This document shows, piece by piece, positions 11,231-64,000 of a DNA stretch of 64,000 bases. Source of the DNA: Ferrimonas futtsuensis DSM 18154 (GTDB lineage: Bacteria > Pseudomonadota > Gammaproteobacteria > Enterobacterales > Shewanellaceae); the NCBI RefSeq assembly GCF_000422645.1, contig NZ_AUGL01000001.1, forward strand, positions 62,001 to 126,000, in the 5' to 3' direction. Made by a program: the position numbers and the translations under genes. The notes below the pieces were generated by a model that was given only the letters and a program-made list of their open reading frames with translations, was not told where the DNA came from and ran no database searches. Positions within the stretch are counted from its first letter, which is position 1. The number at the start of each line of letters is the position of its first letter.

Positions 11231-11759
11231 ACTGCTTCTGGCCGCCATGATGCTGCTGGGCAGCACCGGCGCCGCAGCCCTGGACAGCGACATTCACGAA
11301 AAGGTGGAGGTCAAAGCCGATAACTCCCGAGCGGATCTGCCCAACGGCATGCTGATCTATTCCGGCCGGGTGCGCATCACCCAGGGCACCCTGCTGATCA
11401 ACGCCGACGAGCTGCGTGCCGAAGCCACCGACAACAAGGTGGTCACCACCCTGATCGCCTCCGGCACGCCGGCCACCTATCAGCAGATGATGGAGAATGG
11501 CAAGCTGGCCCAGGCCGAAGCCGCCGAGATCCGCTATGACATCCAGAAACGCATTCTGACCCTGAAAGGGAAAGCGGAGATGCGCCAATCCGGCAGCCTG
11601 GTTCAGGGCGACACCATCCAGTACGACCTGGAGAAGCAGATGCTGGTGGCCGAAGGCAACAAGGATGAGCAGATCACCACCATCTTCCAGCCGGCAGAAA
11701 CCGACCTGAAATCCCTGGCCGAGCCCAAGGAGAAGAAAGAGGGTGAGAAACAGCAATGA
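11208..11759 (+). CDS. lptA: Periplasmic LPS-binding protein LptA
   Basis: A 183-residue protein with a signal peptide (hydrophobic residues ~8-22, likely cleavage after GAAA) and an OstA-type jellyroll domain, visible from [20 protein letters not shown] and [13 protein letters not shown]. LptA bridges inner and outer membrane and carries LPS to LptD. The C-terminus is Lys/Glu-rich ([10 protein letters not shown]). A second ATG at 11217 is an equally good start by family length; 11208 has the closer AGG ribosome-binding site. The stop overlaps the lptB start by four bases. Confidence 0.93.
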
Positions 11760-12487
11760 CCCGCTCAACCCTGACCGCAGAGAAACTGGCCAAGGCCTAT
11801 AAGGGCCGGGAAGTGGTCAAGAATGTCGGCCTGGAGGTCAGCACCGGCCAGATCGTCGGCCTGCTTGGTCCCAATGGGGCCGGTAAGACCACCACCTTCT
11901 ACATGGTGGTGGGCCTGGTGCAGAACGACCGTGGACGCATCCTCATCGACGGTGAGGAGATCACCCTGCTGCCGATGCACAGCCGCGCGCGCAAGGGCAT
12001 TGGCTACCTGCCGCAAGAGTCTTCCATCTTCCGAAAACTGTCGGTGTACGACAACCTGATGGCGGTACTGCAGACCCGCAAGGGGCTGAGCCAGTCTCAG
12101 CGGGTGGAGAAGCTGGAGCAATTGCTGGAAGAGTTCAACATCACCCACATCCGCGACAGTCTGGGGATGAGCCTCTCCGGGGGCGAGCGCCGCCGGGTAG
12201 AGATTGCCCGGGCCCTGGCCGCCGATCCCAAGTTCATCTTGCTCGATGAGCCCTTCGCCGGCGTCGATCCCATCTCGGTGATCGACATCAAGAAGATCAT
12301 CCAGCACCTGAGGGATCGTGGCCTGGGCGTGCTGATCACCGACCACAACGTCCGCGAGACTCTGGACGTCTGTGAACACGCCTATATCGTCAGCCACGGC
12401 GAGCTGATCGCCCAGGGCGAACCCGCCGCCATCCTCGAGAACAAGCTGGTGCGCTCGGTATACTTGGGCGACCAGTTCAAGCTATAG
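11756..12487 (+). CDS. lptB: LPS export ABC transporter ATP-binding protein LptB
   Basis: A 243-residue ATPase that powers LPS extraction from the inner membrane as LptB2FG with LptC. Walker A is GPNGAGKTT (residues 38-46), the signature LSGGE is at 140-144, and Walker B ends with Asp164-Glu165. [10 protein letters not shown] gives the H-loop. It is the last gene of the lpt block before rpoN, a strongly conserved order in proteobacteria. lptF and lptG are not in the window. Confidence 0.97.
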
Positions 12488-61934: not shown

Positions 61935-62192
61935 ATGGCCCAACTGATTGAACAGGTAAGGGACGCCTTCCCCTTTGGCGTGCCCGAAGCGGAGATCTGT
62001 GGCGACACCTGTGTAGGCTGCCCGAAGAAATTGCTGGAACTGGTGGACACTGAGCTGTGCGACTGGGAAACCCGACTGGAACACGGCGAAACGCCCAAGC
62101 TGGGGGACATCTCCCGCCTGGCGAAGCTGTGCAAGAACGTGTACCGGGGGTTAAAGCGGAATAAACTGGTTAATTCAGACTACAAATCTTAA
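61935..62192 (+). CDS. Small conserved protein with CxxxxCxxC motif downstream of uvrA
   Basis: An 85-residue soluble protein. A cysteine motif ICGDTCVGCPKKLLELVD lies near residues 18-35, with a fourth cysteine in ELCDWE and a fifth in KLCKNVY; metal binding is possible. I recall similar uncharacterised proteins after uvrA in related marine bacteria. No good ribosome-binding site is seen. The ATG at 61935 was chosen, but a GTG at 61911 would add eight residues. It starts after the uvrA terminator, so it needs its own promoter or readthrough. Confidence 0.7.
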   Translation: MAQLIEQVRDAFPFGVPEAEICGDTCVGCPKKLLELVDTELCDWETRLEHGETPKLGDISRLAKLCKNVYRGLKRNKLVNSDYKS

Positions 62193-62341
62193 GCTTAAAT
62201 AAAAATCGACAGACTTATCCATACAGAATGTAACCCAGATACAAAATTACTATTCAAAAGGCAAGGTTCAACAAAAAACTCTAGTGTTAATTTAGTCAGT
62301 TGTCCAGTTAAGACCGAACAATGATGTGAATACAGCATTTT

Positions 62342-62536
62342 TCAATACTTTACTTCCTTAGAGAATATTGACGTATACATTAATGCTAAACCAACCCACA
62401 TAATGCATTCCAAGAAATCATAAGAAAAACCTTTTGCTTTATACTCACACCCTGCCGCAGAAATAAAAACAAAAATACAAATCAAAGAAAGCCAGAAAAG
62501 TATCACTCTCAGAAAGCTAATGATTTTGCACATCAT
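62342..62536 (-). CDS. Small two-helix membrane protein of unknown function
   Basis: A 64-residue protein in the AT-rich segment, with two hydrophobic helices (about residues 6-26, FLRVILFWLSLICIFVFIS, and 41-56, CIMWVGLALMYTSIF) joined by a short polar loop. The ATG at 62534-62536 was preferred because GGGGAGG lies ten bases upstream. An ATG at 62575 gives 77 residues but has no clear site. Codon use is AT-rich, unlike the rest of the window. It lies on the same strand as the bacteriocin precursor, so an immunity or accessory role is possible. Confidence 0.55.
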   Translation of the reverse strand: MMCKIISFLRVILFWLSLICIFVFISAAGCEYKAKGFSYDFLECIMWVGLALMYTSIFSKEVKY

Positions 62537-62575
62537 AGCATTATGGCCTCCCCTATTGCCGCCAACCATTCTCAT

Positions 62576-62783
62576 AATGGACTTTCAATTCCATCACTTG
62601 CTCAAATAATATCATGGTAGCAAATGAGGAAGAGTAGACAATTCCACACATAGCCTTTGAAGCAATATCTTTATCTTAAGGTGAATAAATACCAGATTTT
62701 TCCTATGCAAGGTGAAGCATATCATTTATGACTTAGCCTCACCTTACAACTTGGGCAAATAAATCTCACAATAAATCCCCAAT
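62576..62783. other. 208-base AT-rich gap without a clear gene
   Basis: This gap separates the two small membrane-protein genes. Only a 37-codon frame with no ribosome-binding site is open on the leftward strand. No hairpin terminator was recognised. Confidence 0.5.
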
Positions 62784-62951
62784 TCAACCTGTTCCATCCC
62801 TAAGATTTTTTTTAGAAAAGTAAACCACAGGAATGGTTAAGAGTGCTGAAGTAATATATACATACAACCTAGAATCTATATTGAAGATAACATCATTAAA
62901 AAATGACGTGGCAAAAAAAACAAATGAAAAGCTATAAATAATGTTTGTCAT
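62784..62951 (-). CDS. 55-residue membrane protein, candidate bacteriocin immunity protein
   Basis: A short frame found by reading the strand directly. It begins ATG at 62949-62951, 41 bases after the bacteriocin precursor stop, and ends at TGA 62784-62786. The product has two hydrophobic stretches (about residues 4-18, IIYSFSFVFFATSFF, and 29-45, LYVYITSALLTIPVVYF) and a basic C-terminus (SKKNLRDG). Small two-helix proteins next to the precursor are typical immunity proteins of class II bacteriocins and microcins. The ribosome-binding site is weak, so translation is not certain. Confidence 0.5.
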   Translation of the reverse strand: MTNIIYSFSFVFFATSFFNDVIFNIDSRLYVYITSALLTIPVVYFSKKNLRDGTG

Positions 62952-62956
62952 ATTTC

Positions 62957-62986
62957 ATCGGGAGGCCTAATGACCTCCCCTCCGAT
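62957..62986 (-). terminator. Stem-loop at the end of the bacteriocin precursor gene
   Basis: ATCGGGAGG and CCTCCCCTCCGAT pair as a GC-rich stem with a small bulge around an 8-base loop, in otherwise AT-rich DNA. It starts five bases after the precursor stop on the leftward strand. There is no long T tract, so it may be a weak terminator or a 3'-end stabiliser that allows lower expression of the downstream gene. Confidence 0.55.
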
Positions 62987-62991
62987 AAAGT

Positions 62992-63213
62992 TTAGTATTG
63001 TTCAATGAATTTACCAAACAAGTACCCAAAGCCACCAATAACTGCTCCAGCAGCACAAACCTGACCAAAGGCCACATTTGATGTACCACCTGTAGCTATA
63101 GAAGCCCCCATTACTGCGGTAACACACCCTGCCCCCATAGCACCAGCAAGCTCGCCAGGGCTAAAAGAGCCACCAGTAACTGAGCCCAACTGTTCCGATT
63201 GCAATTCCTTCAT
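62992..63213 (-). CDS. Class II bacteriocin/microcin precursor with double-glycine leader
   Basis: A 73-residue precursor. Residues 1-15, MKELQSEQLGSVTGG, are a canonical double-glycine leader, with Leu4, Glu7, Leu9, Val12 and Gly14-Gly15 at the positions read by C39 peptidase transporters. The predicted mature peptide has 58 residues, no charged cluster, many Gly and Ala, GxxxG motifs (GELAG, GAVIG, GYLFG) and two cysteines (C30, C53) that could form a disulphide. This resembles pore-forming class II bacteriocins. AGGA lies six bases before the ATG. The neighbouring ABC transporter gene upstream supports export of this peptide. Confidence 0.8.
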   Translation of the reverse strand: MKELQSEQLGSVTGGSFSPGELAGAMGAGCVTAVMGASIATGGTSNVAFGQVCAAGAVIGGFGYLFGKFIEQY

Positions 63214-63298
63214 ATCACATCCTATTTTACATCCATGTTTAAATAAGCTTGATACATAAACATAGTTTGCTTATAAACCAAGCGCCAGCTCAAGGGTG

Positions 63299-64000
63299 TT
63301 AGGACCCTTGATTTAGGCCCTCAGTTGAGCCTAAATTCTTTATAAGACCAGTCTCCCAATTAGCGACATCGACTGCAGAAATGCAACCAGAGTCAATCAC
63401 CAATACCCTAGTGACGTTCTTAACTGTCTCCGGACGATGGGAAATCACTATTCTAGTCATAGTCAACCCATTGATCTCATGTAATATTCTTGCTTCATTC
63501 TCTAGGTCCAGGTGGCTAGTAGCTTCATCCAGAAACAAAATTTTTGGTCGCTTATACAAAGCCCGAGCGAGCAAAATTCGTTGAACTTGGCCACCTGAAA
63601 ATTGATTTCCCATATCTCCAACTAAACTGCTATAGCCCATTGGTAGCTTCTGTATCTCATTATGAATGGACGCAATCTGTGCACACTTTTGCATCCATAA
63701 CATATTTGGCTCAGGGTCGAAAAATGTTATGTTGTCTGCCACAGAGCCAGTAAGCAGTGTATCGTCCTGCATCACAGCTGCGACCTCCGCCCGATAACGC
63801 CTGTTGCCAAGCCCTCGAATCTCTACTCCATCCAAATAGATGCTTCCAGCATTTGGCTCTATAAGCCCAAGGAGCAACTTCATCAACGTTGTTTTTCCGC
63901 TTCCTGACGGCCCAACTATCGCAACATGCTCTCCCGGCATGACATCAAAAGCTAACTGTTCAAACAAAGGGGGCTGCGAAGGTTCATAACCATATTCCAG
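63299..64000 (-). CDS. ABC exporter, C-terminal nucleotide-binding domain (partial, likely bacteriocin transporter)
   Basis: About 233 residues are visible; the frame stays open to the window edge, so the N-terminal membrane and any peptidase domain lie beyond it. Walker A GPSGSGKTT, the signature FSGGQ, Walker B KILFLDEATSHLD and the H-loop ISHRPETV are all present. The sequence GYEPSQPPLFEQLAFDVMPGEHVAIVG is typical of the linker to the ATPase of exporters that fuse membrane and ATPase domains (C39-type bacteriocin or HlyB-type exporters). It ends 85 bases upstream of the double-glycine precursor on the same strand. An inverted repeat (63291-63310) overlaps its stop. Confidence 0.85.
   Translation of the reverse strand: MEYGYEPSQPPLFEQLAFDVMPGEHVAIVGPSGSGKTTLMKLLLGLIEPNAGSIYLDGVEIRGLGNRRYRAEVAAVMQDDTLLTGSVADNITFFDPEPNMLWMQKCAQIASIHNEIQKLPMGYSSLVGDMGNQFSGGQVQRILLARALYKRPKILFLDEATSHLDLENEARILHEINGLTMTRIVISHRPETVKNVTRVLVIDSGCISAVDVANWETGLIKNLGSTEGLNQGS

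Follow-up and report, generated by a model that had tools for sequence, protein, structure and literature searches.

The right end of a 64,000-nucleotide stretch of the Ferrimonas futtsuensis DSM 18154 genome (contig NZ_AUGL01000001.1, positions 62,001 to 126,000; the whole stretch is termed the window) raises the question of what a small gene cluster beside uvrA produces and how it came to be there. The cluster lies on a 418,907-base contig and contains a short precursor gene with a double-glycine leader next to an ATP-binding cassette (ABC) exporter gene that runs out of the window. The reading favored here, at a probability of about 0.78, is an operon for a class IIa-type (unmodified) microcin composed of an adaptor, a cutting exporter, the precursor and one or two candidate immunity open reading frames (ORFs). 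It is preferred because the leader, the intact catalytic residues, the adaptor, the channels encoded in the genome and the gene order can all be read from the sequence. An antibacterial action of the secreted peptide is considered likely to the same degree, and cutting and export of the precursor by a peptidase-containing ABC transporter (PCAT) system is very probable.

The 73-residue precursor begins MKELQSEQLGSVTGG and comprises a leader of 15 residues ending in Gly-Gly followed by a Gly-rich core of 58 residues with cysteines at core positions 15 and 38, in agreement with the preliminary description of this DNA. The core has a mass of 5.57 kDa, a net charge of approximately -1.6 and the C terminus GYLFGKFIEQY, and glycine accounts for 22.4% of the core and 21.9% of the whole precursor. 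A 15-column matrix was built from 10 leaders of other Ferrimonas loci, the F. futtsuensis leader excluded, and applied to 578 small ORFs of the window (distinct stops, 30-130 amino acids). The precursor is at the top with 21.0 bits, the second-best ORF reaching 12.9, and this value falls inside the leave-one-out range of the training leaders (15.0-26.7 bits). The leader is considered to be beyond chance because it heads the 578 ORFs under a matrix that was trained without it. A profile of 11 leaders, in which the F. futtsuensis leader is one of the 11 rows, matches this genome at the precursor alone (E<=1). Hydrophobic residues are placed at V-4, L-7 and L-12 of the leader, the positions given for class II microcins (PMC11494933), and with a published leader length of 15-18 residues and glycine content of 12-26% the precursor agrees with the class on all three counts.

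The order as transcribed is adaptor, PCAT, precursor, 55-residue ORF and 77-residue ORF, all on the minus strand, with the PCAT start overlapping the adaptor stop by 1 base; the exporter gene is thus directly upstream of the precursor, as originally noted. Table 1 gives the coordinates, for which the same contig was read beyond the window (L003; window position equals L003 position plus 60999). The extension past 64000 adds an adaptor, the protein of which matches HlyD families, and completes a PCAT with a C39 peptidase domain (Pfam PF03412, 120.8 bits against a cut-off of 22) together with the ABC membrane region and ABC ATPase; a transporter devoid of C39 would have spoken against the preliminary description, and with this domain in place its assignment to class II, here of the microcin type, holds for the double-glycine precursor and the exporter that accompanies it. 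The C39 catalytic residues Gln-23, Cys-29, His-102 and Asp-118 are all present and invariant across six aligned Ferrimonas PCATs. The closest solved structures are bacteriocin-type PCAT entries, 4ry2 among them (E 6.5e-99), which is taken here to be PCAT1. The only other C39 match in the genome (C15, 42-46 bits) begins at profile position 15-16, past the catalytic cysteine, and the matching histidine is absent by eye. Cys-29, His-102 and Asp-118 correspond to the published catalytic triad of CvaB (Cys-32, His-105 and Asp-121; PMC9746304) with a constant shift of three positions. Matches to the outer-membrane channel family PF02321 number 14 in the genome with 13 above the cut-off, and therefore the components of class II microcin export, a neighboring PCAT with a Cys/His/Asp triad, an adaptor and TolC-type channels, are all encoded. 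The ratio of nonsynonymous to synonymous divergence (dN/dS) against the genome of a sister species, G012, is 0.11 in PCAT and adaptor alike; both exporter genes are open and under purifying selection.

Table 1. Features of the exporter-precursor locus in window coordinates
Feature	Position	Strand	Remarks
Cargo block (precursor and two small ORFs)	62173-63227		unaligned with the G012 block; both flanks alignable
Main immunity candidate, 77 amino acids as listed	62342-62575	-	two hydrophobic segments, one strong and the other weaker
Second small ORF, 55 amino acids	62784-62951	-	moderately hydrophobic; weaker immunity candidate
Inverted repeat, precursor stop to 55-residue ORF	62954-62989	-	-17.9 kcal/mol, z -2.28
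Precursor gene, 73 amino acids	62992-63213	-	leader 63169-63213, core 62995-63168
PCAT (ABC exporter) gene, 725 amino acids	63299-64000 in the window, on to the equivalent of 65476 (L003:2300-4477)	-	
HlyD-like adaptor gene, 414 amino acids	equivalent of 65476-66720 (L003:4477-5721)	-	wholly beyond the window

These components suggest a route in which the precursor would be produced with its 15-residue leader, and the C39 domain of the neighboring PCAT would bind the leader and cleave behind Gly-Gly. Export of the 58-residue peptide straight to the medium would then run through the PCAT together with the HlyD-like adaptor and a TolC-type channel encoded elsewhere. The two core cysteines may form a disulfide, the exported peptide most likely targets the inner membrane of related bacteria, and the downstream small membrane protein of 63-77 residues would shield the producer. 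The precursor-plus-immunity block would be the exchanged part of the locus.

The nearest known arrangement is the microcin V type (CvaC/CvaB/CvaA/TolC), which as described in PMC10233263, PMC9746304 and PMC11494933 shares the 15-residue Gly-Gly leader, a Gly-rich anionic peptide of ~5-10 kDa, a PCAT with the same triad, a HlyD-like adaptor, a small membrane protein by the precursor and a possible disulfide. It differs in that the Ferrimonas precursor is unmatched by the MccV model PF17508 at E<=1 and the immunity candidate matches no family model above its cut-off. The Ser/Gly-rich C terminus for siderophore attachment, which marks class IIb in PMC10233263, is absent from the Ferrimonas core, and class IIa is therefore preferred over IIb. 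Class IIa microcins are tabulated as plasmid-borne in PMC10233263 on the strength of five examples, whereas the Ferrimonas locus is on a 419-kb contig beside uvrA; plasmid location is a habit of the known class IIa microcins, not a definition. Another marine gammaproteobacterium, Aliivibrio wodanis, has a Gly-Gly leader peptide with a PCAT and HlyD protein on pAWOD920 (PMC4462113). According to that source the pAWOD920 locus additionally has possible mceI/mceJ-like maturation genes and a CAAX (Abi) protein, none of which is seen by eye beside the Ferrimonas cassette, and isolates with the locus inhibit others but so do isolates that lack it, making this a correlation only. A PCAT on A. wodanis plasmid LN554848.1, which may be pAWOD920 itself, is 52% identical to that of F. 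futtsuensis. PCAT1 of Clostridium thermocellum shares the C39 and ABC exporter architecture and is described in PMC10233263 as a Gram-positive system with no adaptor or outer channel, in contrast to Ferrimonas with its adaptor gene.

Comparison of 14 Ferrimonas genomes, that of F. futtsuensis (G000) included, indicates how the exporter came to be at this site. PCAT relatives (E<=1e-60) occur in 8 of the 14. In four genomes (G000, G012, G008 and G005) the exporter is beside uvrA, and in G002, G001, G007 and G011 PCATs are away from this site, one of the two in G007 being ~21 kb from uvrA. The PCATs at the uvrA site group in a single clade, ((G000,G012),G008),G005, with support of 100/99, and their branching order is that of uvrA similarity (95, 91 and 82%). 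Synonymous divergence (dS) between G000 and G012 is 0.29 for the adaptor and 0.51 for the PCAT, or 0.41 without its end, and four flanking genes give 0.26, 0.31, 0.37 and 0.47. The shared site, the single clade in uvrA order and the dS values like those of the flanking genes argue that the exporter was inherited; by these comparisons it is a vertically kept resident of the uvrA site in part of Ferrimonas, and horizontal transfer of the whole locus was rejected for the exporter on the tree and dS. At the same site in G009 there are ~350 unaligned bases between the post-uvrA small genes and a CAP-domain gene, compared with ~5.3 kb in G005. Because 2.8 kb on the uvrA side is 93% identical between G005 and G009, the simplest reading is loss of the exporter from the site in G009. 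Past the CAP gene G009 also encodes an 881-amino acid protein (L044:4243-6888) with PHP and AAA ATPase domains, possibly a defense gene.

The cargo block has a different history. Between G000 and G012 the flanks align with 94.9% identity from uvrA through the next small gene and 87.2% over the PCAT, the adaptor and the sequence beyond, while the blocks between them (1,055 bases in G000 and 850 in G012) are unaligned. Blastn between the two blocks yields pieces of 9-14 bases with a best E of 0.11, and tblastx yields no more than short pieces (E 0.002), including a 19-residue piece with 53% identity spanning the precursor and the second G012 peptide. Identity at the PCAT 3' end declines through 90, 78, 64 and 28 per 100 columns (gaps counted), and because it falls before the gene is over, the exchange junction is placed within the PCAT gene or at its 3' end. 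The cargo block alone is thus read as an exchanged module, the exporter being fixed and the cargo differing between sisters. The shift from GC-rich to AT-rich sequence after uvrA that was first reported is borne out, with a G+C content of 60.7% for window positions 1-62170, 36.7% for the cargo block and 43.4% for the ABC gene. No donor of the block was found.

By eye, the cargo of G012 comprises two Gly-Gly peptides and a Zn-ribbon-like membrane protein, and G008 at the same site carries one longer Gly-Gly peptide with an 82-residue hydrophobic protein. G005 has two Gly-Gly peptides with two Zn-ribbon-like proteins, G001 two peptides with one such protein, and G002 three peptides with a 101-residue hydrophobic protein. 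A view of the uvrA site as an exporter-anchored cargo slot, in which PCAT and adaptor are kept and modules of precursor(s) plus membrane ORF are swapped by recombination, is somewhat favored by this pattern. Small proteins in which two CxxC pairs precede hydrophobic segments (by eye; L020:6903-7214, L022:11319-11636 and 11647-11955, and L024:10383-10733) adjoin double-glycine cargo of the two-peptide kind in three of the Ferrimonas genomes. Three of these four were scanned and reach no Pfam cut-off; they are a possible immunity family.

The precursor itself has no close relatives in the collections searched. Homology searches found nothing convincing in 152 genomes of the family (one weak match besides its own) or in 394 genomes of the order (two weak matches besides its own), nor in the plasmid collection, the viral contigs or the genome-contig scan. 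The weak matches in G485 and G241, where by eye there is no leader ORF, and in G004, which has an internal stop codon, were judged to be chance. The locus had been proposed as a new, horizontally acquired bacteriocin: "new" is a fair description of the peptide, whereas horizontal acquisition is not supported for the exporter, resident beside uvrA in four genomes.

Cargo of related exporters was surveyed in 80 loci chosen by exporter similarity, the best of at least 556 confirmed, spanning Shewanella, Colwellia, Pseudoalteromonas, Thalassotalea, Rheinheimera, Aquimarina and others; the Ferrimonas loci L045 and L050 among them contributed leaders to the training set. The PCAT strand holds 3975 small ORFs, of which 112 are leader-like (at least 14 bits), and the opposite strand 4924, of which 4 are; at 20 bits the counts are 84 and 2, respectively. 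At least one leader-like ORF is found on the PCAT strand in 48 of the 80 loci, many with two to several peptides. The exporters of Ferrimonas, Shewanella, Pseudoalteromonas, Colwellia and others are akin and share a leader consensus with cores that differ. For the F. futtsuensis core against related cargo, blastp without composition correction gives E ~1e-6 and phmmer at best 0.0043; because phmmer is far weaker, shuffle tests against 116 cargo cores were relied on. The highest shuffle z values are 6.7 for the second G012 peptide, which resembles the C-terminal half of the core, and 5.6 for a peptide of L063, which passes the Bacteriocin_IIc model PF10439 (28.4 against 27.1 bits). The other nine Ferrimonas cores give z <1. 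Of nine Ferrimonas cargo peptides other than the F. futtsuensis precursor scanned with PF10439, none passes (best 17.2).

Further double-glycine cargo is present outside this group. Precursors in G010 and G013 (L143:5166-5345 and L144:5897-6040) come from genomes in which no PCAT relative was found at E<=1e-60, and one adjoins a 127-residue hydrophobic protein and the other a 198-residue CAAX (Rce1-like) protein. A separate Ferrimonas PCAT clade (G011 and G007) is accompanied by leader-bearing peptides (L026:9429-9713 and L027:8166-8324) with proline-rich C termini, e.g. FPPGGIIR, compared with Gly-rich cargo elsewhere. Another, distant PCAT locus of G001 (L028:4644-7555) contains two double-glycine-like ORFs, one per strand, and a radical SAM protein, which suggests a modified peptide. 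PCATs ~48-50% identical to that of F. futtsuensis, with one to several double-glycine peptides, are found in Aquimarina of the Bacteroidota (L080-L083, L086-L088 and L090) and might reflect cross-phylum transfer.

The two ORFs downstream of the precursor had been described as tiny membrane-protein genes; both ORFs exist, and hydropathy indicates a clear membrane segment in the 77-residue ORF only (maximum 2.63, residues 18-36, compared with at most 1.53 in the 55-residue ORF). In the 77-residue ORF a ribosome-binding-like stretch, GGGGAGG, ends 10 bases upstream of Met-14, and the true start is probably Met-14 or Met-15 (62536 or 62533), giving 64 or 63 residues. At either length it suits the size and position of known microcin immunity proteins, described as 51-216 residues, usually membrane-bound and adjoining the precursor (PMC10233263, PMC9746304), and by sequence is a candidate for this role. 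No ribosome-binding stretch lies directly 5' of the 55-residue ORF, which may be noncoding. The inverted repeat between the precursor and this ORF is equaled in folding by 6 of 200 shuffles and lacks a T run; with this modest support it is a possible mRNA 3'-stabilizing or processing hairpin. An Rfam search gave no match. The best Fur-like site in the cargo block scores 13 (shuffle mean 12.1, maximum 15). Some 1.6 kb past the adaptor gene, at L003:7354-8970, is a chemoreceptor gene with MCP signaling and HAMP domains.

Several results weigh against the microcin-type operon. The precursor reaches 11.2 bits with PF10439, below the 27.1 cut-off, is unmatched by NCBIfam models and has no match among solved structures, and neither small ORF is above any Pfam or NCBIfam cut-off. 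For the 77-residue ORF the 394 genomes of the order hold nothing convincing, only weak matches in six genomes besides its own, 42-60 residues long with 28-34% identity and in three of the six with internal stops, that were judged to be chance. The same genomes hold nothing convincing for the 55-residue ORF either, a weak match in one other genome being likewise judged chance; the weak matches of both ORFs span 28-41% identity. The GxxxG motifs of the core, pointed out in the preliminary description, occur 3 times where shuffling this core predicts 2.56 (p ~0.50) and were dropped as evidence, the count being explained by high glycine. The promoter scan returned 4 hits against 9.7 expected and the terminator scan 2 against 3.8, neither in excess of chance. 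The best Fur site 5' of the adaptor matches 12 of 19 positions (shuffle mean 11.0, maximum 14), and iron control through Fur was rejected with the best matches in the shuffle range. Finally, 32 of the 80 related loci have no leader ORF at 14 bits on the PCAT strand, and recognizable cargo is therefore not beside every such exporter.

The microcin reading has also to be weighed against a double-glycine signal or a biofilm or surface peptide that is not a killer, with the small ORFs encoding accessory membrane proteins or being there by chance. Double-glycine peptides have been described in other roles, e.g. as cyanobacterial biofilm proteins, the immunity function is assigned tentatively to small ORFs that lack convincing homologues, and the chemoreceptor gene is close by, yet no sensor kinase or response regulator is seen by eye among the ORFs beside the cassette, part of which were scanned. 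Cargo that differs between sister species is more what competition would produce than what a conserved signal would, and the sister cargo blocks also hold a small hydrophobic ORF beside the peptide(s) by eye, leaving the signal or surface role unlikely. That the peptide is half of a two-peptide bacteriocin, its partner lost, elsewhere or within the 55-residue ORF, would accord with the two double-glycine peptides of G012, G005 and G001, the three of G002 and the likeness of the C-terminal half of the core to one G012 peptide. The genome-wide leader search nevertheless has a single match, the 55-residue ORF has no leader and G008 at the same site likewise carries one peptide, so this alternative is improbable. 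Least likely is a locus in decay, in which an old exporter is left beside a cargo ORF that is dead or arose by chance: the absence of convincing cargo homologues and the weak ribosome-binding context of the 55-residue ORF would suit it, but the exporter genes are open with low dN/dS and the precursor leader scores as true leaders do.

A class IIa-type microcin operon accordingly remains the preferred reading, and a literature search found no work pairing Ferrimonas with "microcin" and co-occurrence with "bacteriocin" only in two papers, judged by title to be a review on the fish gut and a study of a gut metagenome. The locus would add a candidate microcin-type peptide from a genus for which this search found no bacteriocin work. 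For microcins, exporters that are conserved while cores and immunity proteins vary have been described before (PMC9746304), and if the uvrA site is a cargo slot, sister Ferrimonas species load one export machine with different peptides. The four genomes with one exporter clade, one site and different cargo form a natural experiment, and comparison of their cargo could show how far the PCAT constrains what it carries and in what way immunity accompanies the peptide.

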